Source: Halopseudomonas aestusnigri
Lineage (GTDB): Bacteria > Pseudomonadota > Gammaproteobacteria > Pseudomonadales > Pseudomonadaceae
Direction: 5' to 3'
DNA: 64,000 nt
Assembly: GCF_002197985.1 (NCBI RefSeq)
Contig: NZ_NBYK01000005.1
Coordinates: 10,091-74,090, forward strand
Each line of letters opens with the position of its first letter. Position 1 is the stretch's first letter. Below, piece after piece: positions 4,309-41,124 of this stretch. Under the pieces are notes generated by a model that ran no database searches, was not told where the DNA came from, and saw only the letters and a list, made by a program, of their open reading frames with translations. A program made the translations under genes and the position numbers.

Positions 4309-4356
4309 GCCAACGATTCTAGAGAGCAGGCAAGCCCCGGCCCTATGCTACTTCAG

Positions 4357-4370: not shown

Positions 4371-4400
4371 GTCTTGGGGACGACGCGGAGCGGGGCTGGT

Positions 4401-4500
4401 GATTGACGGAGAAGCCTGCGGCGTTCTCCATCCTACATGGTTGAGGTGCGGGGCTGGCGGCGGCCGTAGGGTGGAGAATCGCGTAGCGTTCTCCACCATG
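4401..4500. repeat. pair of REP-like hairpins
   Basis: Two related short palindromes: GGAGAA (4408-4413) pairs with TTCTCC (4424-4429), and GGTGGAGAA (4470-4478) pairs perfectly with TTCTCCACC (4489-4497). Each is flanked by a CTAC/GTAGG-type end and they lie in opposite orientation, like a BIME pair. They are in the gap between FIST and the porin terminator. Confidence 0.6.
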
Positions 4501-4548
4501 AGCGCCCCGCCGAAGCCCCGCAGCCAAGCTGGAACTCGGCCGTCCCAG

Positions 4549-4583
4549 AAACAAAAACCCCCGCCTGCTCACACAGGCGGGGG
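4549..4583 (-). terminator. rho-independent terminator of the porin gene
   Basis: A 10-bp perfect stem (4558-4567 with 4574-4583, CCCCCGCCTG/CAGGCGGGGG) with a 6-base loop, followed on the minus strand by TTTTTGTTT. It starts 20 bp after the porin stop. Confidence 0.9.
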
Positions 4584-4602
4584 CCGGTACTGCTGAAGGC
4601 TC

Positions 4603-5769
4603 TTACCAGCTCAGGGCAACACCCAGAGCGACGGAGTCGGTCTCTTCGATGGTGACGCTGTTGGTGCGGTCTTCGATCTCAAACTGGTTGTACTCGGCTA
4701 CCAGCGTCAGGTGCTCGTTGATGCTGTGGAACAGGCCGATGGCGCGGGTTTCGTAGTCAGCGGCAACGCCCAGGCCATTGCCGTCGTCTTCGGTCTTGCC
4801 ATAGGACAGCGCCAACCGGGTCTTGCCGCCGAAGGTGTAGGAACCCTGCAACAGGTGTCCAGTGCTGTCAACTTCACGCAGTACCGCTTCGCCCGCATTG
4901 TTGGTGAAGAACGGGTTGATGCCTTCGGCGTCAAAACCGGATGCGGTCAGCGACAGGGCGCCCATCTTCGCCTGGACGCCGTAGCCAAAACCCTGCGAGG
5001 TCACGTCGTCGACGGTGCTGTCGGTGTTCTTGGAGGTCTGGTAGCCGGCGTTCACCCAGCTGTAGATATCGGCGCCAGCCAGATCGAACTGGTAGGTGAC
5101 TTCAGTTTCGAAACGCGGTGCGTCCTGGTAGTTCTTGCCGACAGCGCTGTCGTCACTGGTGTCGACCGGGTCCATGATACCGGCGGCAACACGCAGGCCA
5201 CCCATGACCGGCGAGCGGTAGGTGATCTGAGCGGTCGGGAACGGGTACGGGTAGCCGCTGCCGATGTTGCCGAAGGACACGCCGCCGCCGTCGACCAGAC
5301 CCAGTGTGTCGCTGACCTGACCGTAACCGGCGAGCATTTCGTCGAGCAGGATGTTGGAGCGGGCAAACAGCCCGAAGTCCTTACCGACCAGCACTTCACC
5401 CCAGTCGCCGCCGATAGTGCCGTAGAACTGACGTACGTCGATGGCGGTCGCGGTGCCGTTGGTTTCGCTGTCGTTGATGGTGACCCAGAACGACGAACGC
5501 GCGCCGAGTGTCAGGTCGCCCATGTCCTTGCCCATGTTGAAGCCGATGTAGTTCGGCAGAAAGCCCATCTTGACGCGGGCCTGATCGCGGTCCAGGTCGT
5601 CATTGATGTTGTCGGTGTCGGTCTGAACGTAGAAGGCATTGACGTAGCCGTCAGCGGAGAAGGTGGTGCCGTCTTCGTCGTACAGGGTAATGGCGGCGGA
5701 GGCCGGCGCGCTCAGCAACGCGAGGGCGATGGGGGTCAGCAGGGTGCAGGCAATCTTGTTCTTGTACAT
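4603..5769 (-). CDS. Gram-negative trimeric porin (OmpC/Porin_4-like)
   Basis: Outer-membrane beta-barrel of 388 residues. A signal peptide (KNKIACTLLTPIALALLSAPASA) is followed by ITLYDEDGTTFSADGYVNAF, and amphipathic strands run to a C-terminal aromatic residue (GVALSW), as expected for BAM recognition. The ATG at 5769 is chosen because GGAGAG lies about 8 bases upstream and the signal peptide starts there; an upstream in-frame start would add 12 non-signal residues. A single-gene unit with its own terminator. A regulatory-looking palindrome cluster lies 140-170 bp upstream, containing one copy of the motif shared with the dehydrogenase promoters, so it may be an alcohol-induced porin. Substrate specificity is unknown. 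Confidence 0.85.
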   Translation of the reverse strand: MYKNKIACTLLTPIALALLSAPASAAITLYDEDGTTFSADGYVNAFYVQTDTDNINDDLDRDQARVKMGFLPNYIGFNMGKDMGDLTLGARSSFWVTINDSETNGTATAIDVRQFYGTIGGDWGEVLVGKDFGLFARSNILLDEMLAGYGQVSDTLGLVDGGGVSFGNIGSGYPYPFPTAQITYRSPVMGGLRVAAGIMDPVDTSDDSAVGKNYQDAPRFETEVTYQFDLAGADIYSWVNAGYQTSKNTDSTVDDVTSQGFGYGVQAKMGALSLTASGFDAEGINPFFTNNAGEAVLREVDSTGHLLQGSYTFGGKTRLALSYGKTEDDGNGLGVAADYETRAIGLFHSINEHLTLVAEYNQFEIEDRTNSVTIEETDSVALGVALSW

Positions 5770-12713: not shown

Positions 12714-12776
12714 GGCTGCTCCCTTTCGATTTGGTATTGGCAACGGCGTGGCTGACACACCGCGGGGCAGACTATA

Positions 12777-12795
12777 ATTGTTATAACGTAACAAT
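12777..12795. promoter_or_regulatory. candidate Zur box of the TonB receptor
   Basis: ATTGTTATAACGTAACAAT has 7-bp inverted arms (ATTGTTA/TAACAAT) and an AT-rich core. Its inner 15 bases match the gammaproteobacterial Zur pattern TGTTATAATATAACA at 13 positions. It overlaps the likely promoter of the znuD-like gene (minus-strand TATAGT at about 12769-12774) and lies only about 20 bp from the end of the CRISPR array. Confidence 0.6.
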
Positions 12796-12812
12796 AAAAG
12801 AGATTTTCCACG

Positions 12813-15781
12813 AACCTATGCTGCCTACACGGCAGTGAAGATGGGCAAGCCGGGCGGTTATTCTGATCCGATTTTCTGAGCTGCCTACACGGCAGTGAAG
12901 CCACTCTTTGCGCCCGGCGCGGATCTCAGACATTTCTGAGCTGCCTACACGGCAGTGAAGTTCCGCCTGCATTTCGAGTGCTCGGATTTGTGTTTCTGAG
13001 CTGCCTACACGGCAGTGAAGTGGGCGCCATTGTGGTCGACCGGTCAGAGTCGTTTCTGAGCTGCCTACACGGCAGTGAAGACTCCAGCGCGAACTGCACT
13101 GTGTAGGGTGCCTTTCTGAGCTGCCTACACGGCAGTGAAGGGGCGGTTGGGTCAGCAGCATGGCGCTGGACCTTTCTGAGCTGCCTACACGGCAGTGAAG
13201 CAGTGGCTGGCGTACCAGGCGGTGCAGATGCTTTTCTGAGCTGCCTACACGGCAGTGAAGGCAAGTGGTATGAGCTGCGTGATCTGGGCAACTTTCTGAG
13301 CTGCCTACACGGCAGTGAAGCGTAGGTGCCGCCCATGGGGTTGGTGGCATCATTTCTGAGCTGCCTACACGGCAGTGAAGCTGGACTGCGGACTCCCACT
13401 CTTCCGGAGTAATTTCTGAGCTGCCTACACGGCAGTGAAGTGCGCCGGATAGCATTCTCTGATCGTTCGATATTTCTGAGCTGCCTACACGGCAGTGAAG
13501 GGTCGGTGATGGCCTGCAGCGTGCCGTCCATTTTTCTGAGCTGCCTACACGGCAGTGAAGGACAAGATCGGCGACGTTTTCAAGGATGTGCATTTCTGAG
13601 CTGCCTACACGGCAGTGAAGTATGCACAGGCGCGTGACAGCGGCGTGCTGCTTTTCTGAGCTGCCTACACGGCAGTGAAGGTGACCCTGAATCACCCTGC
13701 GAGAAGTATCGCTTTCTGAGCTGCCTACACGGCAGTGAAGGAGTCGATGATCTTCGATGCAGAGACGTTGGATTTCTGAGCTGCCTACACGGCAGTGAAG
13801 TGGCACGTAACAGCTTGCTGGTCTCCGTGGTATTTCTGAGCTGCCTACACGGCAGTGAAGGGGGACCCCGGCAGCGCAGCGGTAGCGCGGCTTTTCTGAG
13901 CTGCCTACACGGCAGTGAAGTACACCGCCCAACAACCGGCAGCGCCTGATCCTTTCTGAGCTGCCTACACGGCAGTGAAGGGCGCGGTCTCGCTGGCCAG
14001 CTTCAAGGTGCATTTCTGAGCTGCCTACACGGCAGTGAAGCGAACCCAGAACTTCGCGGTAATCACGTCCTTTTTCTGAGCTGCCTACACGGCAGTGAAG
14101 TTTGTTGTCAGCGTGCCCTTGGTCAACGGTGTTTTCTGAGCTGCCTACACGGCAGTGAAGTCGCCGGCGTCACTGATGCCTTTGGACTTCTGTTTCTGAG
14201 CTGCCTACACGGCAGTGAAGATGATCTACGATGCTGGCGGAGATCCGTTGGCTTTCTGAGCTGCCTACACGGCAGTGAAGAGCAGAAGCTGGCACTGCAG
14301 CGGCTGATGGAATTTCTGAGCTGCCTACACGGCAGTGAAGGGTCGCTCTATCGCTCGCTGATGGAACCTATCTTTCTGAGCTGCCTACACGGCAGTGAAG
14401 AGTAGAAATCAAGACAAGTGAGCTGGAAGGTGTTTTCTGAGCTGCCTACACGGCAGTGAAGGGGACGCTTGCGCCTCTTGACCGGATCACTACTTTCTGA
14501 GCTGCCTACACGGCAGTGAAGAGAAACGCCTTGCTGATGCCGGTGGCCTGGACTTTCTGAGCTGCCTACACGGCAGTGAAGCTCTTGCGCGATAGTGTTC
14601 GCGATTACCGTCTTTTCTGAGCTGCCTACACGGCAGTGAAGTCGAGCTTGAGACCATGATGGCGGAATGGGACTTTCTGAGCTGCCTACACGGCAGTGAA
14701 GGATCAGCCGCATCAATGGTGCCGTTTAGCGCTTTTCTGAGCTGCCTACACGGCAGTGAAGAGCAGGCACGGCTTGATGCCGCGCTCAATACCTTTCTGA
14801 GCTGCCTACACGGCAGTGAAGTTTCGCGTCTTCGTTCCGGTCAATTTCATCTTTTTCTGAGCTGCCTACACGGCAGTGAAGGTTGTGGTGCTGTTCCGTG
14901 CTGGCTACGGTTCTTTCTGAGCTGCCTACACGGCAGTGAAGTTATTGTTCCCGGGATAAATATGCATTTCTCATTTCTGAGCTGCCTACACGGCAGTGAA
15001 GGGTGCTTGTCGAATAGGGTCCACGGGCAAGACTTTCTGAGCTGCCTACACGGCAGTGAAGGGACGCGGATAGTCTCAACCGGCGCGCTAGAATTTCTGA
15101 GCTGCCTACACGGCAGTGAAGAGAGTCTGCGCAAACTGCACGGGGTGCATGATTTTCTGAGCTGCCTACACGGCAGTGAAGGCTTTTCGGGTACAGACGC
15201 TTGAGCTCAAGCATTTCTGAGCTGCCTACACGGCAGTGAAGGAGGTCGGTGCCCATTGCGGTTGCGACGTCCATTTCTGAGCTGCCTACACGGCAGTGAA
15301 GATACCCAGTTCTGGGACACAGCGCTAGCAGCTTTTCTGAGCTGCCTACACGGCAGTGAAGACTACCCAGCACGGCATCCAATGCGCCGGACTTTTCTGA
15401 GCTGCCTACACGGCAGTGAAGTCACCCGGACAGCGACCGGCGACAAAGGCCGATTTCTGAGCTGCCTACACGGCAGTGAAGGCAAGCGTGGGGACGTACC
15501 GAGCATCGCTACTTTTCTGAGCTGCCTACACGGCAGTGAAGTCATCAACGTAGTCGGGAACCACGACGACACGTTTCTGAGCTGCCTACACGGCAGTGAA
15601 GTTCCAGATGCCCAGCAGATCCGCTGCTGGGGCTTTCTGAGCTGCCTACACGGCAGTGAAGAAAACAAGTTTGATATTCGATGCGACTTCTCTTTTCTGA
15701 GCTGCCTACACGGCAGTGAAGACTTGCTTGGCACCGGAGGTCATCGCCGAGCGTTTCTGAGCTGCCTACACGGCAGTGAAG
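12813..15781 (-). CRISPR. type I-F CRISPR array, 50 repeats and 49 spacers
   Basis: 28-bp repeats (minus-strand form begins CTTCACTGCC and ends CTCAGAAA, with the GCCGTGTAGGC hairpin) alternate with 32-bp spacers at a 60-bp period. I count 27 repeats ending at 12840 to 14400 and 23 ending at 14461 to 15781. The spacer at 14401-14433 is 33 bp, which shifts the phase by one. All repeats read as identical except the last (12813-12840), whose final eight bases are degenerate (minus-strand CATAGGTT). Repeat form, leader position and terminal degeneration all show transcription on the minus strand from 15781 leftward. The repeat matches the type I-F family processed by Cas6f (Csy4), whose gene is adjacent. 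Long reading frames across this region only translate the repeat. Confidence 0.99.
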
Positions 15782-30926: not shown

Positions 30927-31160
30927 GCAGGCTCGGTCGAACGAGGGTTCTCACCGAGAGCTCGCCGGATAAACAAAAACGCCCAGCTGAGCCGGGGACT
31001 GTGCCGTCTGAGACTTCGTCAGGGATTATTCGGCGCTGCGCGCCTCACCCCTCTTCGAGGGGCCGCCGTCGCGATGCTCCGGCGTTCCTCGCCTGCAAGC
31101 AGGCTCGGTCGAACGAGGGTTCTCACCGAGAGCTCGCCGGATAAACAAAAACGCCCAGCT
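30927..31160. repeat. 62-bp direct repeat, two copies
   Basis: Positions 30927-30988 and 31099-31160 are identical over 62 bp (GCAGGCTCGG to GCCCAGCT). Each copy ends with the left half of the terminator stem, but only the second copy is followed by the right half. It includes a small CTCGGT/ACCGAG hairpin. Part of a 489-bp gene-free stretch (30895-31383) whose remainder holds the terminator, att site and integrase arm repeats. Confidence 0.8.
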
Positions 31161-31180
31161 AGGCTGGGCGTTTTTGTTTA
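31142..31180. terminator. bidirectional rho-independent terminator
   Basis: A perfect 18-bp stem (TAAACAAAAACGCCCAGC, 31142-31159, with 31163-31180) and 3-base loop, with A and T runs on both sides. It ends the GGDEF-EAL gene. It directly abuts the att site, so before the element inserted it would also have terminated the tRNA-Ser gene. Confidence 0.93.
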
Positions 31181-31181
31181 T

Positions 31182-31195
31182 TGGCGGAGAGTCAG
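31182..31195. other. attachment site, truncated tRNA copy (int side)
   Basis: TGGCGGAGAGTCAG is identical to the 3' terminal 14 bp of the tRNA-Ser at 41035-41048. The tRNA similarity stops here, so this is the att core left on the distal side. Confidence 0.85.
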
Positions 31196-31337
31196 TCCTA
31201 CAAAAACCAATCTATAAGCGTCTATTCAATTCCACTAAACGAACAAAATAAATCAACAAAGCCTAGCATTCACGGGCATTACAGCCTAACATCCGTCCAA
31301 CAAGCACCAAAGCACCCTGTTTCCTTCCACCATCTTA

Positions 31338-31380
31338 ATGGGGGATCAAATGGGGGATCAGCCGAATAAGTGGGGGATCA
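31338..31380 (+). repeat. integrase arm-type repeats, left end (3 copies)
   Basis: ATGGGGGATCA at 31338-31348 and 31350-31360, and GTGGGGGATCA at 31370-31380, in direct orientation just before the integrase start. Matching copies occur inside the right end (40959-40981). This is the layout of integrase or excisionase arm sites. Confidence 0.7.
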
Positions 31381-31383
31381 GGC

Positions 31384-32634
31384 ATGGCGGACCGGACTGC
31401 AAACAAGCTGAAATCCAAGCAGGTGGAAAGCCTGACAGAGCCGGGAACCTATGAGGACGGCAACGGCCTGCGCCTTGTAGTCAGCAAAACTGGCCGCAAG
31501 TCGTGGGTGTTCCGCTATCAGATCAACGGCAAGCGCCGGGAGATGGGGTTAGGCAAATACCCTGGCCGTTCACTGGAGAACGCCCGCAGGGATGCCGAGG
31601 ACGCTCGCAGACAGATCGCTAGCGGCATTGACCCTATCGACGCCGCCCATGCTGAACGCGAAGCCCAGCAGGCCGCCGCTATTGTCGAGGCCGCCAAACG
31701 GATCACCTTTGACCAAGTGGCCGCCGATTACATTGCCGCCCATCGCGCCGGCTGGAAGAACGCCAAGCATGCCCAGCAATGGGAAAACACTCTGAACACC
31801 TATGCATCGCCCGTTATCGGCAAGCTGTCACCGGATGACATAACCACCGAGCAGGTGTTGAAGGTCCTGCAACCGATCTGGACGACCAAGCCCGAAACCG
31901 CAAGCCGAGTGCGCAACCGCATTGAGTTGGTACTGGACGCAGCCAAGGCACGCGGCCTGCGCGATGGCGAGAACCCAGCCCGCTGGCGCGGACACCTGGA
32001 TAAGCTGCTGCCCAAGCGTGCCAAGGTGCGAGCGGTGAAGCATCACCCCGCCCTACCCTGGCAGGACCTGCCCGCGTTTATGGCGCGACTGAGCGAAGCC
32101 GGCAACCTGACGCACGCCGCCATGCGCCTAACCATCCTGACCGCCTGCCGCAGTGCCGAGGTGCTGAACGCTGAATGGTCGGAGATCGACATGCAGGCCC
32201 GCACCTGGACCATTCCAGCCGAACGCATGAAGGCCAGCAAAGAACACCGGGTGCCACTATCTGACGCTGCCATCGCTGTGCTGGAAGCCCTGCCCCGTGA
32301 TGATGACAGCCCCTATGTGTTCCCTGGTGCCCGACGCGGCCGCCCGTTGTCCAATATGGCTATGCTGATGGGGCTGCGCCGTCTGGAGCGTGACGACCTG
32401 ACCATGCACGGCTTTCGCTCCACGTTTCGGGACTGGGCAGCAGAGGCCACCCATTACCCGCGCGACGTATGCGAGCAGGCACTAGCCCATACCATCGGCA
32501 ATGCAGTTGAGGCGGCTTATCGGCGTGGCGATCTGTTCGACAAGCGCCGGGCCATGATGGATGACTGGGCGCATTACGCGACCACCGCCCCAAGCGGCAA
32601 GGTAGTGCGCGGCAATTTCAAGAAATCTGGATGA
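31384..32634 (+). CDS. int: P4-type tyrosine integrase
   Basis: A 416-residue site-specific recombinase that should insert and excise the element at tRNA-Ser. N-terminal DUF4102 arm-binding domain (YEDGNGLRLVVSKTGRKSWVFRYQ), a SAM-like core-binding domain (about 95-180), and a catalytic domain with Arg in TACRSAEVLNAEW, HGFR (HxxR), His in LAHTIGN, and the nucleophile Tyr in EAAYRRGDLF. ATG at 31384 directly after the arm repeats. Full length and apparently intact. It is at the end of the element away from the intact tRNA. Confidence 0.95.
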   Translation: MADRTANKLKSKQVESLTEPGTYEDGNGLRLVVSKTGRKSWVFRYQINGKRREMGLGKYPGRSLENARRDAEDARRQIASGIDPIDAAHAEREAQQAAAIVEAAKRITFDQVAADYIAAHRAGWKNAKHAQQWENTLNTYASPVIGKLSPDDITTEQVLKVLQPIWTTKPETASRVRNRIELVLDAAKARGLRDGENPARWRGHLDKLLPKRAKVRAVKHHPALPWQDLPAFMARLSEAGNLTHAAMRLTILTACRSAEVLNAEWSEIDMQARTWTIPAERMKASKEHRVPLSDAAIAVLEALPRDDDSPYVFPGARRGRPLSNMAMLMGLRRLERDDLTMHGFRSTFRDWAAEATHYPRDVCEQALAHTIGNAVEAAYRRGDLFDKRRAMMDDWAHYATTAPSGKVVRGNFKKSG

Positions 32635-32715
32635 CCGGACGGCATCCGATAGGTGCCGGGCCGCTGTTGGAGCAGTGGCCCGGCTATCACACGGCGACTA
32701 TACGAGGTACACGCC

Positions 32716-32970
32716 ATGCAATACCAAGAGCATATCAAGAAGCTGCCTAAACTGGCATGGGACCACGGCGAGCGGACGGTAAGCGCTGCACTCGGGCTTG
32801 ATGCTATAGCCAACCTGCTAGGCGCTGACGGTTCTGAGCACTACATGAATAACGAGGACCGCGAAGGCCTGGCGCACGCAATTCGTGCTTTGTCCGGGTT
32901 CCTTCATAGTGCAGGCAACGACCTGTGCGAAGAAGCCGAAATGTGCGGCGCGCTGGAGAAATCACAATGA
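32716..32970 (+). CDS. hypothetical protein, element-borne
   Basis: An 84-residue acidic protein (MQYQEHIKKLPKLAWDHGER) with no recognised domain; mostly helical by composition. ATG at 32716 with GAGG upstream. Its stop overlaps the next start (ATGA), so it begins a three-gene translationally coupled set. A hairpin (GCCGGGCC/GGCCCGGC, about 32656-32695) separates it from the integrase. Confidence 0.7.
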   Translation: MQYQEHIKKLPKLAWDHGERTVSAALGLDAIANLLGADGSEHYMNNEDREGLAHAIRALSGFLHSAGNDLCEEAEMCGALEKSQ

Positions 32971-33248
32971 CCACTGAAAACACTACTGCTCTCCTGCATA
33001 GCATTCTTGGTGAAATAGGAACCGCAGCAAACACCCTGGGCGGCGAGCTTATGGAGGCGTGCGCCACCGCAGACGCTTGCACCGGCCGACGCCTGCACGC
33101 GCTTGGGGCATTGGCTGACAAAATCGGCTGGCTTGCAGACCTGGCGTTGGAGAAAACCACCGGGAGCGCGGAAATTGTGGGCGATGCCGAAGACTGGTTT
33201 CTGCCGCCGAGTTACCACGCCGCCAAGAGCATGGAGGGCAAGCAATGA
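32967..33248 (+). CDS. hypothetical protein, element-borne
   Basis: A 93-residue protein (MTTENTTALLHSILGEIGTA), Ala/Leu rich and probably helical, with three Cys. No family recognised. Coupled by ATGA overlaps to both neighbours. Confidence 0.7.
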   Translation: MTTENTTALLHSILGEIGTAANTLGGELMEACATADACTGRRLHALGALADKIGWLADLALEKTTGSAEIVGDAEDWFLPPSYHAAKSMEGKQ

Positions 33249-33517
33249 ACAAGTCTACGCACCCCAAGTTCGATTCCGCTGGAGACTTCACCCGGTTTCT
33301 TGTCGTGCAGCGCGGAGACATACTCCGAGGCCCCTATGGGTATCTAGGACCATTCGCAACTGACGATGAAGTAGATCTAGCCTGCGAACGGCTGGCCTTG
33401 GCAGAACCGGCACAGAGCTTCTACGCAGCAGAATGCATGCTTATCTCGGTCGCAGCATCGGAGATCGAGGCGGACTACCAACAGGCATTGCGACGCCTTG
33501 ACGGCCTAGCAGCCTAA
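33245..33517 (+). CDS. hypothetical protein, element-borne
   Basis: A 90-residue protein (MNKSTHPKFDSAGDFTRFLV) with no recognised domain. Its start overlaps the preceding stop by 4 bp. Last of the coupled set; 90 bp of non-coding DNA follows. Confidence 0.7.
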   Translation: MNKSTHPKFDSAGDFTRFLVVQRGDILRGPYGYLGPFATDDEVDLACERLALAEPAQSFYAAECMLISVAASEIEADYQQALRRLDGLAA

Positions 33518-33607
33518 CCGAGTTCGACCAGCCTAGCCCGACGGGGCGAAAAGCGGATCACCTACCCGCCTGGCTGGTTGATTTAGTAGGTCGCCTGAGG
33601 AGGCGCT

Positions 33608-34246
33608 ATGAAAGTATCAGACCTTGTTTTGTATCGCCGATTTGACCCAAAGGTTCACGGCATTACGGCAGAGGAAGCACTGGACCGAGCAGTTGACGGC
33701 GAGATACCCGTCTTTTACAAAATTGACGCGCCCGTCACGCTTCACGGCCCAACACATACCGAGCCAAGTGGAAAGAAAGTTGCCGGCCCAGACCTTGGCA
33801 AGTGGCACAGCATCACTATTCAGATACCGCAAGGCCTCCTGTTCGACCTCATGCTCGACGAGCAAGCACACCTGACCGACGCAGATGGCAACCCAACCGC
33901 ACTTGAGGTTGAAAGCGTCTACCCTGCCGCTCCACAAGAGTTCAGCTCATACTTGCTATGGCCGGAAGGCCGCCCGATCCAGCTAGAGAGGGACAAGCTA
34001 TTTTTCAACGCTGCCGACTTGAAGGGGCTTGCTACCGACAAAGAGCGACCAATACATACAAGAGAGCGCCGGAACGTAGCCCAGATCATAGCCGCGCTGG
34101 CACGCATGGCTGACCTTGACCTGTCCGAGCCTTACAAAGCGTACGATGCTATGGAGAGCTCGAGCGACCTAGCCGGCGCGCAACTCCCCAGCAAAGACAC
34201 AGTGGCAAGATGGCTCAAAGCCGCCCATGCAGAAGATAAAGCATGA
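33608..34246 (+). CDS. hypothetical protein with C-terminal helical DNA-binding-like segment
   Basis: A 212-residue protein. The N-terminal two thirds are of unknown fold. The C terminus (RRNVAQIIAALARMADLDLSEP to TVARWLKAAH) resembles the paired-helix tails common in phage and mobile-element proteins, where DTVARWLKAA looks like an HTH recognition helix. ATG at 33608 with GAGGAGG upstream. Function unknown. Confidence 0.75.
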   Translation: MKVSDLVLYRRFDPKVHGITAEEALDRAVDGEIPVFYKIDAPVTLHGPTHTEPSGKKVAGPDLGKWHSITIQIPQGLLFDLMLDEQAHLTDADGNPTALEVESVYPAAPQEFSSYLLWPEGRPIQLERDKLFFNAADLKGLATDKERPIHTRERRNVAQIIAALARMADLDLSEPYKAYDAMESSSDLAGAQLPSKDTVARWLKAAHAEDKA

Positions 34247-34255
34247 ACGCCAGAG

Positions 34256-34286
34256 TCTAACTAGAACAACGGCAATTCTAGTTAGA
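34256..34286. promoter_or_regulatory. perfect inverted repeat upstream of alpA
   Basis: TCTAACTAGAA (34256-34266) and TTCTAGTTAGA (34276-34286) are perfect 11-bp arms around a 9-base centre, about 78 bp before alpA. No T-run follows. A regulator operator for the alpA-replication operon is likely. Confidence 0.6.
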
Positions 34287-34363
34287 ACACCTCAGAGGCA
34301 ACCATCTATTGAATGCATAACCACAACCCATTAAGCGCCAACAAGCGCAAAGGAGTTCTGGTT

Positions 34364-34552
34364 ATGTCTACCCGCTACATCATGCGCCTGCCGGAAGTGA
34401 TCGAGAAAACCGGCTACAAGCGCGCCAGCATTTACAACTTCATGAAGGCCGGCACGTTTCCGCAGGCCCGCCGCATCGGTCCGCGCGCCGTTGGCTGGGA
34501 TAGCCTGGAAGTCGAAGCCTGGATCGCCAAGCAACTGGGGGAGGTCGCCTAA
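34364..34552 (+). CDS. AlpA-family DNA-binding regulator/excisionase
   Basis: A 62-residue winged-HTH protein with the AlpA signature RLPEVIEKTGYKRASIYNFMKAGTFPQARRIGPRAVGWDSLEVEAWI. AlpA proteins act as excision factors or transcription activators in satellites and integrative elements. ATG at 34364 with AAGGAG upstream. Followed without gap by the next gene. Confidence 0.93.
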   Translation: MSTRYIMRLPEVIEKTGYKRASIYNFMKAGTFPQARRIGPRAVGWDSLEVEAWIAKQLGEVA

Positions 34553-34840
34553 ATGACAGGCAAAGAAAAGGCCGACCCGAAGGCCAGCCCCAATACACAC
34601 AGCCCCAATAATACCAGTACTGGCGCTCAACGCGCACGACTGCTGGAGCACCTGGAATATGGCGCGGTGGACACCATCACCGCCCGCAGCAAACTGAACG
34701 TGATGCAGCCCGCCGCACGCATCAAGGAACTGCGCGACGCCGGCCACAACATCAGTACCCAACGCATCACCCAGACCGACGAACACGGCCGCACCCATAA
34801 GGGCGTCGCGCTGTACTACCTAAGCCAGTCGGAGGCATAA
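34553..34840 (+). CDS. winged helix-turn-helix protein, element-borne
   Basis: A 95-residue protein. After a disordered N terminus, residues about 25-90 (ARLLEHLEYGAVDTITARSKLNVMQPAARIKELRDAGHNI) look like the winged-HTH domain often encoded beside AlpA and toprim genes in Pseudomonas elements. It starts immediately after alpA. Likely DNA binding for replication or regulation. Confidence 0.75.
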   Translation: MTGKEKADPKASPNTHSPNNTSTGAQRARLLEHLEYGAVDTITARSKLNVMQPAARIKELRDAGHNISTQRITQTDEHGRTHKGVALYYLSQSEA

Positions 34841-34842
34841 CC

Positions 34843-34986
34843 ATGACCACCAACCAACACTGCCGGCAGGCGGTGACGCCCCCGGCTTGCCTGCAAACAA
34901 CCAACGCCCTGTTGCTGGCGCTGCAACCCGCTGGCCCTGACCTGATACTGCTGCTGGCGCTGGAGGTGCTGCTATGGACTGCATAA
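34843..34986 (+). CDS. small overlapping reading frame, element-borne
   Basis: A 47-residue frame (MTTNQHCRQAVTPPACLQTT, with a Leu-rich hydrophobic end ALLLALQPAGPDLILLLALEVLLW). ATG 2 bp after the previous stop with GGAGG upstream. It overlaps the toprim start by 13 bp. It bridges an otherwise empty 133-bp gap in a tightly packed operon, which supports it. Could be a small membrane peptide or just a coupling leader. Confidence 0.5.
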   Translation: MTTNQHCRQAVTPPACLQTTNALLLALQPAGPDLILLLALEVLLWTA

Positions 34987-35846
34987 CCGCCTTCCGTGAT
35001 GCCCCGCAAGCGGTCTATGGAGCAATGGACCTGGACCCGATAGCAGACGGCATGATTCATCGTTTCACCGTCCCCGGCGACCGACCCGGCAGCAATAACG
35101 GCTGGTACGTCCTGCACGCTGGCGTCATTGCGTCTGGTGCCTTTGGTAGCTGGAAGATTGGCGACTGCCACACCTGGACCAGCCGGGAGCCTGCCGACCA
35201 GCGCGAAGCCCACCACCTGCGCCAGCAGATGGAACAGGCCCGACGCCAACGGGAGGCAGAGCAACGCCAGCGCCAGCAGGCCACCGCCGAGTATGCCCGC
35301 AAGCTGTGGCGTGATGCCCGCCGCGCCGATCCAGAACACCCCTACCTAACCGCCAAGGGATGCCGACCGCACGCCCTCCGCCAATTGGGTGATGCCCTGC
35401 TGGTGCCGCTGACCCACAAAGGCGAGCTGATGAACGTACAACGCATCCACCCAGACGGCAGCAAGCGCTTTCTGTCTGGTGGCCGCGTGAAAGGCTGCTG
35501 TAGCCCGCTGGGACTGATACAAGCAGGCCAGCCCCTGTACCTGTGCGAAGGTTGGGCAACCGGCGCAACCCTGCACGAGAACACCGGCCACCCCGTCGCC
35601 TGCGCGATGAACGCCGGCAACCTGTTAGCCGTCGGGCAGCAGCTGCAACGCACCTACCCTGACGCCCTGCTGATCGTAGCCGGTGACGACGACCGCCAGA
35701 CCGAGGGCAACCCCGGCAAGACCGCTGCCATTACCGCCGCCGCGACGCTGGGCTGTGGCCTGATCCTGCCGCCCTGGAGCGGTGACGAACCCCTGACCAT
35801 GACAGACTTCAACGACCTGCGCCAATGGCAGGAGGGCAAGCTATGA
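34974..35846 (+). CDS. toprim-domain primase-like protein
   Basis: A 290-residue protein. A charged coiled segment (about 70-110) precedes a toprim domain with Glu in LYLCEGWATGATL and the acidic motif VAGDDDRQTEGNPG. Such proteins with DUF3987 partners form the replication module of P4-like and other Pseudomonas integrative elements. The stop overlaps the next start by 4 bp. Confidence 0.88.
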   Translation: MDCITAFRDAPQAVYGAMDLDPIADGMIHRFTVPGDRPGSNNGWYVLHAGVIASGAFGSWKIGDCHTWTSREPADQREAHHLRQQMEQARRQREAEQRQRQQATAEYARKLWRDARRADPEHPYLTAKGCRPHALRQLGDALLVPLTHKGELMNVQRIHPDGSKRFLSGGRVKGCCSPLGLIQAGQPLYLCEGWATGATLHENTGHPVACAMNAGNLLAVGQQLQRTYPDALLIVAGDDDRQTEGNPGKTAAITAAATLGCGLILPPWSGDEPLTMTDFNDLRQWQEGKL

Positions 35847-37480
35847 CGCTGATACCAGATCCCACCTACCCCCAGCCGTTGCCGCTGATGCCTGAAGCAT
35901 CCGAGCCCGCGCCCTATCCGGTGCATGTTCTGCCAACACTGCTGCAAGACGCTGCAAGGGCTATCGCTCACCATGTGCAGGCACCCGAAGCCATCGCCGG
36001 GCAATGCGTTATTGGCGTCGCTGCCTACCTGGCTCAAACCCGCGTCAATGCCCCCGCGCTGAATCGCCTGGACGGCATGCCCTGCTCCCTGTTCCTGCTC
36101 ACACTGGCAAACAGCGGCGACCGCAAGAGCGAGTGCCGCCGCCTGGCGTTTCGCGTCATCGACGACGCCGAGCGCGAAGCCCGCAGCGCCTACCGCCAGC
36201 AGTGCAAAGAGATCGAGGACGGGGCGGCACACCTGAAAGGCAAAGCCCGTGATGAGTACCTGGCAGAGCATCCATTGCCGAGTGATCCACGCACGCAATA
36301 CAGCGACGCCACGTTCGAGCCGATTGCAGGCGACTTTATCCGAGGCATGCCGGCTGCCTGCTGGGACACCGACGAAGGCGGCCAGCTGTTTGGTGGTGCA
36401 TCACTGAAAGCCGATACCCGCGCTTCAACACTAGGCGGCCTGGTCAAGGCGTTTGATAGCGGCACCTTTGAACGCACGCGATCACGAGGCAACGTCGAGG
36501 GCTCTGGCGTGGCCTATCACCGCCGCCTAAGCGTTCACCTGCTGGCGCAGGCTGTGACAGTGGCCGAAGCGCTGGACGACCCGCTATTGCAAGGCCAAGG
36601 CTTCCTGCCGCGCTTCCTATTCGCTGACGCCCCGAGCCTGGCCGGTACGCGCCTTTTGACCCCGGACCGCATGCACAGCAGCGCATTTAACGATCCGCGC
36701 CTGCATCGTTTCTGGGACCGCTGCCGGGCCATCATGGCAACCGATGCTGCCATCGACACCGAGACGGGAGAGGTGACACCGCCCACCTTGCAGCCAACCC
36801 CGGCGGCCGAAGAAGTCTGGCGAGAGCATTACAACGCCACCGAAGCCGAACAGAGCACACTAGGCGATCTGGCAGGCGTGCGGCCTTTCGCTGGACGCGC
36901 TGGCGAACTAGCCAGACGCCTAGCCGCCGTCCTCGCCTGTTTTGAGCAGTGCCCAGAGATCACCGACAGCATCATGCAAAGCGCCTGCGCGATAGTCCGC
37001 TACTCGGTTGGTGAGTGGGCGCGCTACACCGAGGGGGAACGCCTTAGCCCTGACCTGAAGCAGGCCGCAGCGTTAATAGCCTGGCTGGTAGAGAAAGATT
37101 GGCAGTCCTTCGATGCCCGGCAACTACAACGAGAAGGCCCCCAATCTGTTCGCCGCAGCGCCAAAGCCCGCGACCGCCTGCTAGCCGTCCTGGTCGAGCA
37201 CCGCTATTTGCTGACCAGCAACGGAAAGCAATTTCAGCTAAACCCCGCTGCGACAACTGCGACACCCGCGACAACGCCCGCCACACCTAGCCCCGGAACG
37301 TGCGACACCTTTGCGACAACCTGCGACAAATCAGAGCCGGCCGACACTTTGTCGCAACCTGTCGCAACTCTGTCGCAACCGTCAAACCCAGTAAACACGG
37401 GACTTGTCGCGGGTGTCGCAAATGTCGCAACCACTTCACGCGAAAAAGAACAGGCCGCCCTGTTTGAGGGGGAGATATGA
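35843..37480 (+). CDS. DUF3987/YfjI-family replication protein
   Basis: A 545-residue protein of the DUF3987 (YfjI) family, recognised by LLTLANSGDRKSECRRLAF (P-loop-like), ACWDTDEGGQLFGG and SVHLLAQAVTVAEALDDPLLQGQGFLPRFLFADAP. Likely an ATPase/helicase partner of the toprim protein in element replication. ATG at 35843 overlaps the toprim stop. The C-terminal 70 residues are an unusual Thr/Ala/Pro-rich repeat (ATTATPATTPATP, then SQPVATLSQP) that looks like a flexible linker or tail. Confidence 0.85.
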   Translation: MTLIPDPTYPQPLPLMPEASEPAPYPVHVLPTLLQDAARAIAHHVQAPEAIAGQCVIGVAAYLAQTRVNAPALNRLDGMPCSLFLLTLANSGDRKSECRRLAFRVIDDAEREARSAYRQQCKEIEDGAAHLKGKARDEYLAEHPLPSDPRTQYSDATFEPIAGDFIRGMPAACWDTDEGGQLFGGASLKADTRASTLGGLVKAFDSGTFERTRSRGNVEGSGVAYHRRLSVHLLAQAVTVAEALDDPLLQGQGFLPRFLFADAPSLAGTRLLTPDRMHSSAFNDPRLHRFWDRCRAIMATDAAIDTETGEVTPPTLQPTPAAEEVWREHYNATEAEQSTLGDLAGVRPFAGRAGELARRLAAVLACFEQCPEITDSIMQSACAIVRYSVGEWARYTEGERLSPDLKQAAALIAWLVEKDWQSFDARQLQREGPQSVRRSAKARDRLLAVLVEHRYLLTSNGKQFQLNPAATTATPATTPATPSPGTCDTFATTCDKSEPADTLSQPVATLSQPSNPVNTGLVAGVANVATTSREKEQAALFEGEI

Positions 37481-38040
37481 GCCCCGCCCACCTGATCGAA
37501 CACGCCCGGCAATCCGGTGTTGTACTGATGCTGATTGGCGACCGCTTGACCTGGAGTGCACCCGAACCACCAACCCCCGATCTGCTGGCCCTACTGCGCG
37601 ACCACAAGCCCGCCGTAATCGAGCACCTGCGCCAGCAGCAACGCACCTGGCTGGAGCGTGTGGCCGCCCTGCTGAACACCACCGCAGATGATCTGCTGGC
37701 GCGTGGATTGATCGACGCCAGCGACATGGCAGAGCAGTACCGGACAGACCCACGACACGCCGCCAAGCTGATCGCCAGCTGCCCGGATTGGCTGGCACTG
37801 GCGCGAGTATGCGGGCAATTGCGGGAGCAGTACGCGCGCGCGCATGCGCGCGTAGGCCCGTTTCGCGAAAGCAACCCCATAAGCGGGAGCAGCAACACCC
37901 GCACCGCTGAATGGACGGCCGCGCGCGACGCCCTGCACCGTCACAGCCTGAGCAGTTGCCCTGCCTGCCATCCGGCGACGGGGCGATACTGCCCGACCGG
38001 CCGGGCACTGCTGGCGCAATACCTGGAGCAGCAGCCATGA
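37477..38040 (+). CDS. TubC_N-like protein with C-terminal Cys motif
   Basis: A 187-residue protein. Residues 1-50 (HLIEHARQSGVVLMLIGDRLTWSAPE, ending VIEHLRQQQ) resemble a TubC N-terminal docking domain, normally seen in NRPS/PKS subunits but also next to mobile-element replication genes. The C terminus has a CPACHPATGRYC cluster that could bind zinc. Function in the element is unknown; perhaps a docking or regulatory partner of the replication proteins. ATGA overlaps on both sides. Confidence 0.7.
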   Translation: MSPAHLIEHARQSGVVLMLIGDRLTWSAPEPPTPDLLALLRDHKPAVIEHLRQQQRTWLERVAALLNTTADDLLARGLIDASDMAEQYRTDPRHAAKLIASCPDWLALARVCGQLREQYARAHARVGPFRESNPISGSSNTRTAEWTAARDALHRHSLSSCPACHPATGRYCPTGRALLAQYLEQQP

Positions 38041-38267
38041 CCATCGACGACGAGATTCGCGCCCACCTGGAGCGCATGGGCGTAGTACCACTGCTGGGCG
38101 GCCTGATACCTGAGCCTGCAACAGCAGAGATGCTTGGCTATGCACCGTCCTGGCTGCGCCGGCTAGCCGCTGCCGGCACCCCGCCCCTGCCCTATGTGCG
38201 CAGAGGGAATCGGCGCTTTTACAGAATCGACGACATACGACGCTTTGTGACTGAAACCAACGAATGA
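38037..38267 (+). CDS. MerR/excisionase-like HTH protein
   Basis: A 76-residue protein with a helix-turn-helix of MerR/Xis type (ATAEMLGYAPSWLRRLAAAG, PPLPYVRRGNRRFYRIDDIRRFV). A second small DNA-binding protein in the element besides AlpA; it could be the excisionase or a late regulator. Start overlaps the previous stop. Confidence 0.8.
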   Translation: MTIDDEIRAHLERMGVVPLLGGLIPEPATAEMLGYAPSWLRRLAAAGTPPLPYVRRGNRRFYRIDDIRRFVTETNE

Positions 38268-38349
38268 CGCCCGAGAACGCCCTACCAGCAGAGCAGCAAC
38301 GGGCCTAATTTGGGCTTATCGGGCTTTTTCATCAGATAGAGGACAGCGA

Positions 38350-38628
38350 ATGACCAGTGCAGCACCAACCAGAGGCCGCCAAGCGAGAGCCACCAAAGCC
38401 GAAGTAACCAATGCCTGGCGCCGCATTCGCGACGCTGCCGAGGATGGCAGCTTGCTCGGTAGCGCCCTGCTGATCGCACTCAGTGAAGGCAAACCGTTTG
38501 CGCACGCTGATGGCGGCATCCTCAACCTGCCCGGTCATGGCGGCTGGGTAGGCGATCCAGCCGACCCCGGCGAGACAATCCGGGCAGCTATTCAAGCCGG
38601 CACTACCACCCGGGGCGGCGACCAATGA
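38350..38628 (+). CDS. hypothetical protein, element-borne
   Basis: A 92-residue protein (MTSAAPTRGRQARATKAEVT) with a basic N terminus and an [28 protein letters not shown] helical segment. No family recognised. The stop overlaps the next start. Confidence 0.65.
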   Translation: MTSAAPTRGRQARATKAEVTNAWRRIRDAAEDGSLLGSALLIALSEGKPFAHADGGILNLPGHGGWVGDPADPGETIRAAIQAGTTTRGGDQ

Positions 38629-38774
38629 GCACACCCAGGGCGGCGATCAAAAGCATTCGCGACTATGAGCAGTTCCTCAAGGTCCGAGGCTTTAGCTGCC
38701 GAGAGGCAAAGATTCTGGCGCGCGCCTGGCGCACGCTCGAGCCACCAGCGCAGGGGGAGGGTTTTCGGGCATAG
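38625..38774 (+). CDS. small hypothetical protein, element-borne
   Basis: A 49-residue protein (MSTPRAAIKSIRDYEQFLKV, then RGFSCREAKILARAWRTLE). ATG at 38625 overlaps the preceding stop by 4 bp, which supports translation. The sequence RDYEQFLKVRGFSCREAKILA resembles small proteins encoded before phage capsid genes, but I cannot name it. Confidence 0.6.
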   Translation: MSTPRAAIKSIRDYEQFLKVRGFSCREAKILARAWRTLEPPAQGEGFRA

Positions 38775-38830
38775 GGCTGCCCCAGTTTCGCGACTCCCCT
38801 GCGCGGGCCTCCCGAGTCGCGAAACAGCCC
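38774..38830. terminator. strong hairpin before the capsid gene
   Basis: GTTTCGCGACTC (38785-38796) pairs perfectly with 38814-38825, extended by GGGCTG/CAGCCC at the base. It starts at the stop codon of the preceding gene, and no T-run follows. It may attenuate read-through or form a structured 5' leader of the capsid message within the 254-bp gap 38775-39028. Confidence 0.55.
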
Positions 38831-39028
38831 AGGGACAATGACCGCTTGAGTCACCCGTAGCAGTACATCGAGCAAGGCATAGGGGGCGGCACCGGGAAGG
38901 TGCTGCCGGCCCCCTTCGACGAAGGAGCCGCGGCGAGAGGTCGCGAACCACCCGAACTGATTGCTGGCGTGAGGCCTGGCGGCATCGGGAGTCGCTGAAC
39001 ACTCAATCCCCAACTGAAGGACACCACC

Positions 39029-40159
39029 ATGCCTACAGACCTGAAAGACGTACAAGCAGTGGCCGAAGCCCTCGGCCAGAAGTTCGACCAGTTCAAAGCC
39101 AAGCAAGACGAGCGTTACGACCTCATCGAGAAGGAACTGGTTACCCTGAAGCGCCCCGGAAGCATTGCCGAAGGTCGCAAATCGCAAGCGAGCAGCGAAG
39201 GCAAATCAGCCCTGCGCACCTACATCAAGAGCGGCGACGACAGCGGCCTGATCGAGCTGCAAGGCAAAGCCATGTCTATCGGATCAGATCCGGATGGCGG
39301 CTATGCTGTGCCCGAGTATCTCGACCAAGAGGTGGAGAGCCTGGAGCTCGACGCATCAGCCATTGCCCGCCTGGCGCGAACCGTCACCACCGCAGGCCCG
39401 AACTACAAGAAGGTGATTAACCTGCGCGGCACAACCTCTGGCTGGGTCGGAGAAACTGACGGCCGCCCCGAAACGGGCACCCCGCAGCTCGCGATTATCG
39501 ATATTCCGGTAGGCGAGTTGTACGCCAACCCGAAGTTGACCCAAGCGATGATCGACGACGCCATGTTCGACGCCGAGAACTACATCACCACCGAGATTGG
39601 CGACGAGTTCTCCGACCAACTGGGCGCGGCGCTGTTCAACGGCGACGGCACCAACAAGCCGACCGGCATCCTCACGAAGACCATCACCGCAGAGGCCGAC
39701 GGCGTTCGCGCATTCGGTAGCCTGCAATCGGTCGAGTCGGAGACCGCTGGAGCGATTGGGTTCGACGACCTCAAGAACCTGAAAGCCGCCCTTCGCGCCA
39801 AGTACCGAACCGGTGCCGCCTGGATCATGAACGACAACACCGCCCTGGTGCTGAGCAAGATCAAGGACAACAACGACGACTATGTGTGGCGCGATGCAGT
39901 GGCGGAAGGCGAGCCCGACACCCTGTTCGGTTACCCGGTCGAGATCGACGAGAACGCACCGGACATTGCGGCCGGCGCATACCCTGTCCTGTTCGGCAAC
40001 TTCCAGCGGGGCTACTACATCGTGCGCCGAACTGGCCGCCGCCTGCTGCGCGATCCGTTCACCAGCAAGCCATACGTTAACTTCTACACGACCGAGCGTG
40101 TAGGCGGTGACGTGGTGAACAGCGAGTGCATCAAGCTGCTGAAGGTCAAAGCGTCGTAA
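39029..40159 (+). CDS. HK97-fold major capsid protein
   Basis: A 376-residue phage major capsid protein. An N-terminal coiled delta-type region (about 5-60) is followed by the HK97-fold core with hallmarks SDPDGGYAVPEYLDQEVESL, TSGWVGETDGRPETGTP, ELYANPKLTQAMIDDA, LFNGDGTNKPTGIL and GNFQRGYYIVRRTGRRLLRDP. Length and motifs look intact. It is the only virion gene of the element. No protease, portal or terminase accompanies it, so it may redirect or resize a helper phage's capsids. ATG at 39029 with GAAGGA upstream. Confidence 0.93.
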   Translation: MPTDLKDVQAVAEALGQKFDQFKAKQDERYDLIEKELVTLKRPGSIAEGRKSQASSEGKSALRTYIKSGDDSGLIELQGKAMSIGSDPDGGYAVPEYLDQEVESLELDASAIARLARTVTTAGPNYKKVINLRGTTSGWVGETDGRPETGTPQLAIIDIPVGELYANPKLTQAMIDDAMFDAENYITTEIGDEFSDQLGAALFNGDGTNKPTGILTKTITAEADGVRAFGSLQSVESETAGAIGFDDLKNLKAALRAKYRTGAAWIMNDNTALVLSKIKDNNDDYVWRDAVAEGEPDTLFGYPVEIDENAPDIAAGAYPVLFGNFQRGYYIVRRTGRRLLRDPFTSKPYVNFYTTERVGGDVVNSECIKLLKVKAS

Positions 40160-40166
40160 AGGTGAC

Positions 40167-40190
40167 GGGGGCAGGCAATCTGCCCCCTTT
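40167..40190 (+). terminator. terminator after the capsid gene
   Basis: GGGGGCA (40167-40173) pairs with TGCCCCC (40181-40187), followed by TTT, 7 bp after the capsid stop. Confidence 0.8.
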
Positions 40191-40958
40191 CCTGATGCCG
40201 CAGCAGGCGTCATAACGGGACACCGCCCCGCATCAAAACCAGCCCTTCCTGCATTTCTGCGAAAACACTGCACACCAAGCACGGCGCGGCCTGTAGCCGA
40301 TTCCTGCATTTCTGCACTGAGAGGATGCAGGAACACATTCGGCAGCATGATCCATATCTGGATCACTCGCCCCGCCAACAGTGCGCCTATCGAGCAGCCA
40401 CTATATCTAGGCCCAGCCAGCAGGCTTTACCACCACTGGAGGTAAAGGCCTAGCAAACGCTGACCTGTCCGCATCGCGTGCGGACACATCGAGCCAAGCC
40501 CCGCGCCCCGGTCAATGGGTCCTCCCGGCCACCCCTGCCCCGAGGGTAATTCGGGCCCCGCCATCACGCTATGTACGACAAAAATGCAGAGGTTGGTTGT
40601 TGTGTTGTCAGCGCGATGAAACGCGCATGGAAGACGGCCTGCATGCCGTCGATATGCCAACCAACGCCTGGTATGACAACGAGCCAAGCCCCAAAGACGA
40701 ATCGGTGCCGACGCGACGCTGTGCGCGGTGGCTTGGACGCCTACACCGCTGGACGGCTAGCGTCACGGATCTGGAACAGGGAGGGGGGAGGCAAAAAGCT
40801 GGAGCTCTGGATATCCCGAACGACGGGGGGAACCGTTTTTATGTTTCCGCAAAATTCGCATTCTGGAAATTATGGGCAGACCACGCAAATCGACGCCCTG
40901 GGGACCTCGGATTTCCACAAAATTCGTATTACCGAGAGAACGGCTTTCCGCCAACCAA
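40191..40958. other. structured non-coding tail of the element
   Basis: No convincing gene. TTCCTGCATTTCTGC occurs twice (40246-40260, 40301-40315), with an inverted TGCAGGAA at 40325-40332. Hairpins follow: CTAGGCC..TTTACC with GGTAAAGGCCTAG (about 40407-40453), GTCCGCA/TGCGGAC (40468-40486) and CCCCGA/TCGGGG (40538-40556). Two imperfect 19-bp direct repeats (TTTCCGCAAAATTCGCATT near 40848, TTTCCACAAAATTCGTATT near 40911) lie near the end. A replication origin, packaging site or small RNA could lie here. Confidence 0.5.
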
Positions 40959-40981
40959 ATGGGGGATCAAGTGGGGGAACA
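40959..40981 (+). repeat. integrase arm-type repeats, right end (2 copies)
   Basis: ATGGGGGATCA (40959-40969) and GTGGGGGAACA (40971-40981), same orientation as the three left-end copies. They mark the right internal end of the element. Confidence 0.7.
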
Positions 40982-40992
40982 GCGAAACCCAA

Positions 40993-41023
40993 AAACAACA
41001 AAGCCCCGATATACGGGGCTTTG
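40993..41023 (-). terminator. element-supplied terminator of tRNA-Ser
   Basis: AAAGCCCCG/CGGGGCTTT (about 41000-41022) with a 5-base loop, followed on the minus strand by TTGTTTTT. It lies 12 bp past the tRNA 3' end, inside the element, and so replaces the chromosomal terminator displaced to 31142-31180. Confidence 0.88.
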
Positions 41024-41034
41024 AGGTCGAATAG

Positions 41035-41124
41035 TGGCGGAGAGTCAGGGATTCGAACCCTGGGTACGGTTGCCCGTACAACGGATTTCGAATCCGTCCC
41101 ATTCGACCACTCTGGCAACTCTCC
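41035..41124 (-). tRNA. tRNA-Ser(CGA)
   Basis: A 90-base class II tRNA with acceptor GGAGAGT/ACTCTCC, D arm, anticodon loop TTCGAAA (anticodon CGA), long variable arm, T arm GGGTTCGAATCCC and encoded CCA. The gene is intact. Its 3' 14 bp are the att core of the integrated element. Confidence 0.97.

Follow-up and report, generated by a model that had tools for sequence, protein, structure and literature searches.

The locus raises the question of why an integrated mobile element should carry a single virion gene, that of an HK97-type major capsid protein (MCP). In the window, the whole 64,000-nucleotide stretch of Halopseudomonas aestusnigri DNA analysed here, a 9.85-kb element flanked by 14-bp repeats occupies the 3' end of a tRNA-Ser gene (Table 1). 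The repeat TGGCGGAGAGTCAG is present at both ends, and its second copy forms the 3' end of tRNA-Ser(cga). Empty sites were found in 9 of 29 genus-relative loci, where sequence up to 31195 on the left and from 41035 on the right joins with an overlap of exactly 14 bp; in the remaining 20 loci, the left flank was unmatched or its match ended early, or the match to the right flank started within it. These ends agree exactly with those of a preliminary description of this DNA. Its int-alpA-toprim-DUF3987 make-up was likewise recovered with Pfam (integrase, AlpA, Toprim_3 and DUF3987), to which Rfam adds an int-alpA RNA. The term satellite-like used there was also upheld: as is general for phage satellites, the element is integrative, has its own integrase and replication genes and is devoid of a full virion set, and relatives show the empty site.

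Table 1 Features of the element and its integration site (window positions).
Feature	Position	Strand	Evidence
attL core TGGCGGAGAGTCAG	31182..31195	+	repeat and empty-site comparison
Tyrosine integrase	31384..32634	+	PF22022, PF13356, PF00589
Small protein, no assigned function	32716..32970	+	ORF; no Pfam, PHROGs or PADLOC match
Small protein, no assigned function	32967..33248	+	ORF; PHROGs matches at chance level only
Small protein, no assigned function	33245..33517	+	ORF; no family match
int-alpA RNA, known Rfam family	33526..33591	+	RF02996, 60.2 bits (gathering 35.8)
212-aa protein, no assigned function	33608..34246	+	no family match
AlpA-type regulator	34364..34552	+	PF05930 1.6e-19
Winged-helix protein	34553..34840	+	PF14090 6.1e-18
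Toprim primase	34974..35846	+	PF13362 8.6e-9, phrog_2249 4.9e-65
DUF3987 helicase/primase-like protein	35843..37480	+	PF13148 5.7e-50, phrog_2373 3.8e-38
Protein with TubC_N-like N terminus	37477..38040	+	PF18563 7.9e-9
Small HTH protein	38037..38267	+	PF12728 6.4e-6 (longer frame), just below family cut-off
g92, small protein, also upstream of g49 in L007 and L011	38350..38628	+	tblastn 2e-8 and 1e-7
g49, 49-aa free-standing equivalent of head-protease C-terminal tail	38625..38774	+	viral contigs, profile comparison
Conserved structured leader RNA of capsid gene	38783..39000	+	covariance model; no Rfam match there
HK97-type MCP, 376 aa, shortened scaffold (delta) domain	39029..40159	+	PF05065 E=3.2e-70, phrog_10 E=4.2e-74
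Terminator-like hairpin, 8-bp stem then TTT	40167..40190	+	read from sequence by eye
attR core, tRNA gene 3' end	41035..41048	+	repeat and empty-site comparison
tRNA-Ser (cga), target gene	41035..41124	-	

The full-length MCP is the sole recognised virion gene of the element. No portal, terminase, protease or tail genes were identified among its predicted genes with Pfam or PHROGs, and custom HMMs run on every frame of 45 residues or more between positions 30001 and 42000 returned no portal, protease or TerL. The single intact capsid gene noted in the preliminary description was confirmed by Pfam, PHROGs and the custom HMMs, and it is the only Phage_capsid gene in the host genome. Such a gene could be the chance survivor of a decayed prophage, as the integrase and phage-type genes of the element and the existence of complete phages with related MCPs might suggest. 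However, the MCP frame is open in relatives and its dN/dS is low (dN 0.135 and dS 1.11 against the MCP of element L007), values by which the MCP is judged to be under purifying selection. The comparison with close relatives proposed in the preliminary description was carried out: the three nearest MCP relatives (61–78% identical) are also lone and lie inside otherwise different elements. Neither broken frames nor relatives with the same ends plus a full head module were found, the att repeats are intact, lone MCPs occur in several lineages, and the order g49, leader, MCP recurs alongside different integrases and replication genes. Because the MCP appears to be held by selection and its three nearest relatives are lone as well, prophage decay is highly improbable, in agreement with the original view that this is not a degenerated prophage.

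The MCP was predicted to adopt the HK97 fold (pLDDT 81.3, pTM 0.71). Single shell genes without a portal are able to form closed compartments, and an encapsulin-like compartment serving the host, or another non-viral use of the shell protein, was therefore considered. This is the least probable of the readings weighed here: the scaffold domain is kept, though shortened, no cargo gene was recognised, mobile elements carry the gene, and the capsids nearest to its product are those of GTAs, cf-PICIs and phages. The nearest solved capsids are those of RcGTA, the closest by sequence (E=3.5e-72), and the cf-PICI EcCI2. GTAs have a head-tail cluster and no self-mobility, unlike the element. The cf-PICIs are satellites with their own MCP, but are described as also encoding protease, portal, connectors and terminase (PMC10690885), whereas the element has the MCP only.

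Compared with three phage MCPs at 46–48% identity, the MCP of the element lacks 28 residues (four heptads) of scaffold coil, the reference being the MCPs of related complete phages. The predicted scaffold helix spans residues 5–39 in this protein and 5–67 in the related viral-contig MCP L045. For HK97, D3 and T5, a correlation between capsid size and coil length has been reported (PMC12749128). Natural pairs of short- and long-scaffold MCPs at 46–48% identity offer a way to test how HK97-type capsids arrive at their size. Scaffold lengths of the lone MCPs were 70–85 residues; the measurement gave no value for the MCPs of L008, L167 and L238, and a looser rule gave 67 for L008. Short scaffolds are not confined to lone MCPs, as 6 of 33 measurable module-bearing clusters lie at 54–75 residues and overlap the lone range. 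L184, which belongs to these short, module-bearing clusters, stands closest to the RcGTA capsid. The scaffold of L234, apparently an ordinary phage ended by the contig edge, also looks short, and those of L009 and L015 (85) are close to that of their module-bearing neighbour L168 (83).

Helper capsids are shrunk by several satellite proteins, P4 Sid and PLE TcaP as well as SaPI CpmAB and Rcm, which are not capsid proteins themselves, unlike the MCP of the element. CpmAB, Rcm and like proteins are described as scaffold-type factors acting on the helper capsid protein (PMC12409344, PMC10945586, PMC5052747). According to the preliminary description, a known satellite has either a complete head module or no capsid gene at all. 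This is incorrect: the cos-type island SaPIbov5 encodes Ccm, a lone HK97-type capsid homologue reported to redirect helper capsids to small size (PMC5052747, PMC8569155), and the lone-capsid strategy is therefore known in principle. The delta domain of Ccm is given as 44 residues shorter, phi12 capsids are redirected by it, and its loss restored the phi12 titre by 10^6–10^7 (PMC5052747, PMC8569155). The element resembles this system in being a satellite whose one head gene encodes an HK97-type capsid homologue, here with a scaffold that is short relative to those of related phage MCPs; the remaining parts come from the helper in the case of Ccm (PMC5052747, PMC8569155). It differs in host group and replication genes, and the cited passages on Ccm mention neither a free-standing protease tail nor a leader RNA nor pairing with a tape measure (PMC5052747, PMC8569155). 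Seven solved chains matched the sequence of the MCP at E≤1, and Ccm was not one of them.

At a probability of roughly two in three, the element is an integrative phage satellite with Ccm-like capsid redirection. It probably replicates by its own Toprim and DUF3987 proteins and would make its short-scaffold MCP during the activity of a helper phage whose head is of the HK97 type. The satellite MCP would then join helper head assembly, whether co-assembled with helper MCP in the manner of Ccm or forming the shell by itself, and may drive formation of a smaller shell that fits the ~10-kb genome and not that of the helper, which would provide portal, protease, terminase, connector and tail. Shell supply to a helper, or interference with it, as first proposed, is supported as the likely role. 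Against this reading stand the short scaffolds of module-bearing clusters noted above and a PF05065 search of three host genomes for a helper prophage, which returned no further Phage_capsid gene.

Ten lone-MCP elements were found in total, including that of the window; six have MCPs distant from that of the window and are also devoid of portal and protease. In an MCP tree of 63 rows, built by a quick method and with L166 as a long branch, the lone MCPs require 6 label changes, at least 3 of them forced, which suggests several separate origins of lone-MCP elements. Paired att repeats delimit seven of the ten (9.85 kb in the window, L007 9.75, L166 9.31, L009 10.3, L167 9.28, L238 10.8 and L239 13.1 kb). 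The MCP of L166 had no relative in viral contigs and, in 140 family genomes, matched only its own genome at E≤1e-40. A 132-aa ORF upstream of the L009 MCP had no match in plasmids. Four loci with no portal or protease match (L280, L285, L288 and L290) are candidates only and were left out of the count. An 8-kb contig, L275, running from integrase through MCP without a portal, may represent an eleventh element; it is not included in the ten.

A free-standing protease-tail gene lies upstream of the MCP in 5 of the 10 elements; in the window this is g49, whose ATG overlaps the stop of g92 (ATGA). The identity of g49 is clear only via viral contigs and profile comparison, since pairwise alignment with three phage proteases was not convincing and a tblastn search of phages returned just one weak hit. 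The profile score is not independent because g49 itself had served as the query that retrieved the compared tails; the position of the matching tails at protease C termini is independent of this bias. L131, examined as a g49 carrier, was dismissed as a chance match. The protein probably occupies the protease-recruiting site on the assembling MCP, as a small assembly factor or a protease-loading competitor.

The hairpin leader noted originally corresponds to a covarying region of ~220 nt, conserved in two relatives and present in 3 of the 10 elements. Its covariance model matched only the window, L007 and L011 among 20 and then 69 sources (77 distinct); 298 family genomes yielded the window's own full match and two near-threshold matches of 32 and 45 bases. 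The leader as a known RNA was rejected (Rfam gave no match there at E≤1), as was a site shared with phages, 13 phage records giving weak matches at E up to 10 that each covered at most 13% of the query. A 19-base leader pattern occurred in viral contigs only in L011 and L149, in the latter inside an unrelated ORF. The leader probably governs translation or timing of MCP synthesis.

The MCP and protease tail could instead serve interference only, poisoning helper head assembly as an anti-phage defence while the element stays unpackaged. Ccm too is reported to block its helper strongly (PMC5052747), and a free-standing tail might act as a competitor of the helper's own protease. Against this, a terminase small subunit gene is present in three of the ten elements (L011, L166 and L238) and L167 has a TerL-like gene, which suggests a need for DNA packaging. 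In addition, PADLOC gave nothing convincing for ten of the element's proteins, MCP and g49 not among them (one weak HTH match). Pure interference is accordingly considered unlikely.

Ccm, from Staphylococcus, is the one lone-capsid size switch described in the literature searched, and the set of ten suggests that the same trick has arisen repeatedly in Proteobacteria. Apparently new here are this repeated origin, the free copy of the protease tail, the covarying leader RNA and the tape measure beside a lone MCP. A naturally occurring protein that consists of nothing but the protease tail could reveal how protease is loaded into proheads. A broader reading is offered tentatively, as somewhat doubtful: an unnamed, convergent class of Proteobacteria satellites may take over just those virion parts that set size (an MCP with a short scaffold and sometimes a tape measure), with a detached protease tail controlling protease loading and a leader RNA controlling capsid synthesis or DNA selection, the helper giving the rest. 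A tape-measure gene adjoins the lone MCP in 3 of the 10 elements. Tail shortening is not supported in L007, because its tape measure (959 aa) exceeds that of the closest phage match (816 aa). The named hosts of the set are Pseudomonas, Rheinheimera and Rhizobium.

The stretch bounded by short direct repeats in the window is a real satellite-like element, hereafter W, carrying a lone, selected, short-scaffold major capsid protein (MCP). The capsid protein matches PF05065 at 3.2e-70, and no portal, protease or TerL gene was found in the element with Pfam, PHROGs or HMMs built in this analysis. Phage_capsid is a single-copy gene in each of the three genomes counted (that of W, P. psychrophila HA-4 and Rheinheimera maricola). 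All 578 phage records matching the MCP fall below 60% identity, with 39–44% among the 30 matches listed. Substitution rates between W and its closest relative, L007, are dN 0.135 and dS 1.11. The AlphaFold model has an HK97 fold (pLDDT 81.3, pTM 0.71, 33 sequences), and the nearest solved structures are the capsids of RcGTA and of the cf-PICI EcCI2.

The right repeat copy of W forms the 3' terminus of a tRNA-Ser(cga) gene, and the right flank is present in 36 of 37 genomes of the genus, including its own. Among 29 relative loci compared, 9 have the left flank (to 31195) joined to the right flank (from 41035) with an overlap of exactly the 14-bp core, which identifies an empty site in those relatives. 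The remaining 20 loci showed no left match in the short stretch compared, a left match that stops early or a right match with a later start. The Rfam int-alpA RNA also lies within the element. Just to its left, at 30928–31162, a ~60-nt stretch occurs twice in near-identical direct copies (about 30928 and 31101).

Ends and selected genes of W and other lone-capsid elements.
Element	Position	Ends	Genes and matches
W	31182-31195 and 41035-41048	Direct repeats TGGCGGAGAGTCAG	Integrase, four small unknown genes, AlpA, winged-helix protein, Toprim, DUF3987, TubC_N-like protein, small HTH protein, g92, g49 (49 aa), MCP
L007	tape-measure gene at 11324-14203	Repeats of at least 30 bp at tRNA-Arg (4834/14579)	959-aa tape-measure protein immediately 3' of MCP (phrog_2854, 9e-145)
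L009 (Rhizobium rhizogenes)		15-bp att pair at tRNA-Ser(gga)	
L015 (8.9-kb contig)	tape-measure gene at 2453-4894		MCP, then 813-aa tape-measure protein (phrog_17300, 2.6e-126)
L166		16-bp att pair at tRNA-Ser(gct)	Prim-Pol primase; TerS (PF05119, 6e-9)
L167		14-bp att pair at tRNA-Leu	DUF3987; TerL-like gene
L238		47-bp att pair at tRNA-Glu	TerS (phrog_83, 2.4e-6)
L239	tape-measure gene at 10825-11916	46-bp att pair at tRNA-Pro	363-aa tape-measure protein (phrog_8125, 1e-23)

The MCPs closest to that of W, from L007 (P. psychrophila HA-4, 78%), L011 (a 10.7-kb IMG/VR contig, 70%) and L008 (R. maricola, 61%), are also lone. What these elements share with W is g92 (L007 and L011 only), g49, the RNA leader and the MCP; beyond that there are only some short stretches of matching DNA and, in L008, an integrase and an AlpA that match distantly. 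L011 encodes a terminase small subunit (phrog_83, 5.7e-12), and its contig ends have in common a 294-bp repeat whose copies are 94.6% identical, so that circularity is not proven. L008 adjoins a tmRNA gene; a search for its second att copy found none.

With the six more distant elements of the table, lone-MCP elements total ten. L238 and L239 were, with W, the only three matches in an MCP search of 350 genomes of the class at E<=1e-60, and were checked for portal and protease with HMMs built in this analysis. Only about 0.85 kb lies 5' of the L015 MCP, so a portal past the contig end is possible. The lone MCP is followed by a tape-measure gene in L007, L015 and L239, whose MCPs belong to different lineages. 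In a census that precedes L238 and L239 and includes duplicates and short contigs, 189 of 228 loci with an MCP also had a portal. The 39 portal-less loci comprise 19 that are the lone-MCP elements above or duplicates of them, 5 with a protease match, and 15 whose MCP lies within about 1.2 kb of the contig start, where the gene neighbourhood is therefore not visible. A quick method, with the scaffold excluded, was used to build a tree of the 10 lone MCPs and 53 others that represent clusters of 186 loci with a portal (63 in all). The lone label needs 6 changes on it, of which starred branches force at least 3. One clade (SH-aLRT 99) unites W, L007, L011 and L008; the position of L166, a long branch, is unsure.

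The g49 gene is kept in all four members of this clade (57–73% identity to that of W). A viral-contig scan with the g49 alignment matched L011 and 11 other contigs, in 10 of which the motif is found close to the C-terminal end of a head-protease ORF; the other, L131, is a chance match. Three of these ten proteases (L132–L134) are the same protein, and in nine of the ten loci the MCP is directly downstream of the protease. A profile comparison between five g49-type proteins and eight protease tails gave a probability of 98.6 (E=5.9e-16, 35 columns), a score that is not independent since the tails were fetched with g49 as query, whereas their place at the protease C terminus is. In a motif scan of all collected loci, ORFs below 110 aa with the motif occurred only in W, L007, L008, L011, L166 and duplicate loci. 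Three others of the ten, the head proteases of L125, L127 and L129, look like ClpP by eye and end in the C-terminal tail seen in D14E-type proteases. As it is common to two protease types, the tail suggests a module for targeting or assembly, with targeting as a putative function; its distribution looks like that of an exchangeable module. PMC12749128 cites work on HK97 protease functional domains and encapsidation.

Between g49 and the MCP gene, W, L007 and L011 have in common a structured leader region of ~220 nt (mean column identity 75%). Its consensus structure of 59 pairs shows both-sided changes at 21 pairs, including 10 in the 12-bp first stem, in covariation drawn from the three sequences that also supplied the structure. 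None of 500 shuffles equalled the structure on any of the five measures used, and the signal collapses in slid versions. Folded as a single sequence, the leader is unremarkable (z -1.57), and a model search did not find it in L008.

In alignment, W-type MCPs are without a 28-residue coiled-coil block (four heptads) found in the MCPs of D14E, VW-6S and ST64B, and the predicted scaffold helix spans residues 5–39 in W versus 5–67 in L045. By a motif-based measure, scaffolds of the lone MCPs (7 of 10 measurable) are 70, 70, 71, 72, 78, 85 and 85 residues long, versus a median of 96 (range 54–140) for portal-bearing clusters (33 of 53 measurable). Short scaffolds are typical of lone MCPs and not unique to them, since five portal-bearing clusters fall at 54–55 and one at 75, L234 looks short despite ordinary head-tail and tail genes, and L168, a portal-bearing neighbour of L009 and L015, has 83. 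L184, also in the short group, has the RcGTA capsid as its best match; GTA particles are small.

In the HK97, D3 and T5 comparison described in PMC12749128, coil length correlates with capsid size. As outlined in PMC5052747, the delta domain of Ccm, the lone HK97-type capsid homologue of SaPIbov5, is 44 residues shorter than that of its helper, and a correlation of delta length with capsid size has been suggested. According to PMC8569155, Ccm is located in the pentamers of T=4 procapsids; it is unable to form shells alone. W most likely works like Ccm; no claim is made that its MCP belongs to the Ccm family. In the part covered of the PMC literature on satellites with own or lone capsid genes or with MCP and tape measure, cf-PICI and HK97 satellites, VEIMEs and tycheposons, Ccm was the sole lone capsid homologue noticed, and an earlier mention elsewhere is possible. 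The lone-capsid strategy is already known; what appears to be new is that it recurs in Proteobacteria, along with the detached protease tail, the leader RNA and the pairing of MCP with tape measure.

Three further loci were observed. L275, an 8.0-kb IMG/VR contig running from integrase through MCP (51% to that of L239) with no portal or protease match, is likely a further lone-capsid element. L168, an 11.7-kb IMG/VR contig, has a portal, an integrase, an MCP with 60% identity to the one in L015 and a short tape-measure-like ORF of 460 aa, with no protease match, and is possibly an intermediate. L242 (plasmid CP018459.1, a circular record of 16,971 bp) carries integrase, capsid, protease and terminase genes and one annotated as tape measure; it resembles a cf-PICI, and its portal matches are spread over several frames.
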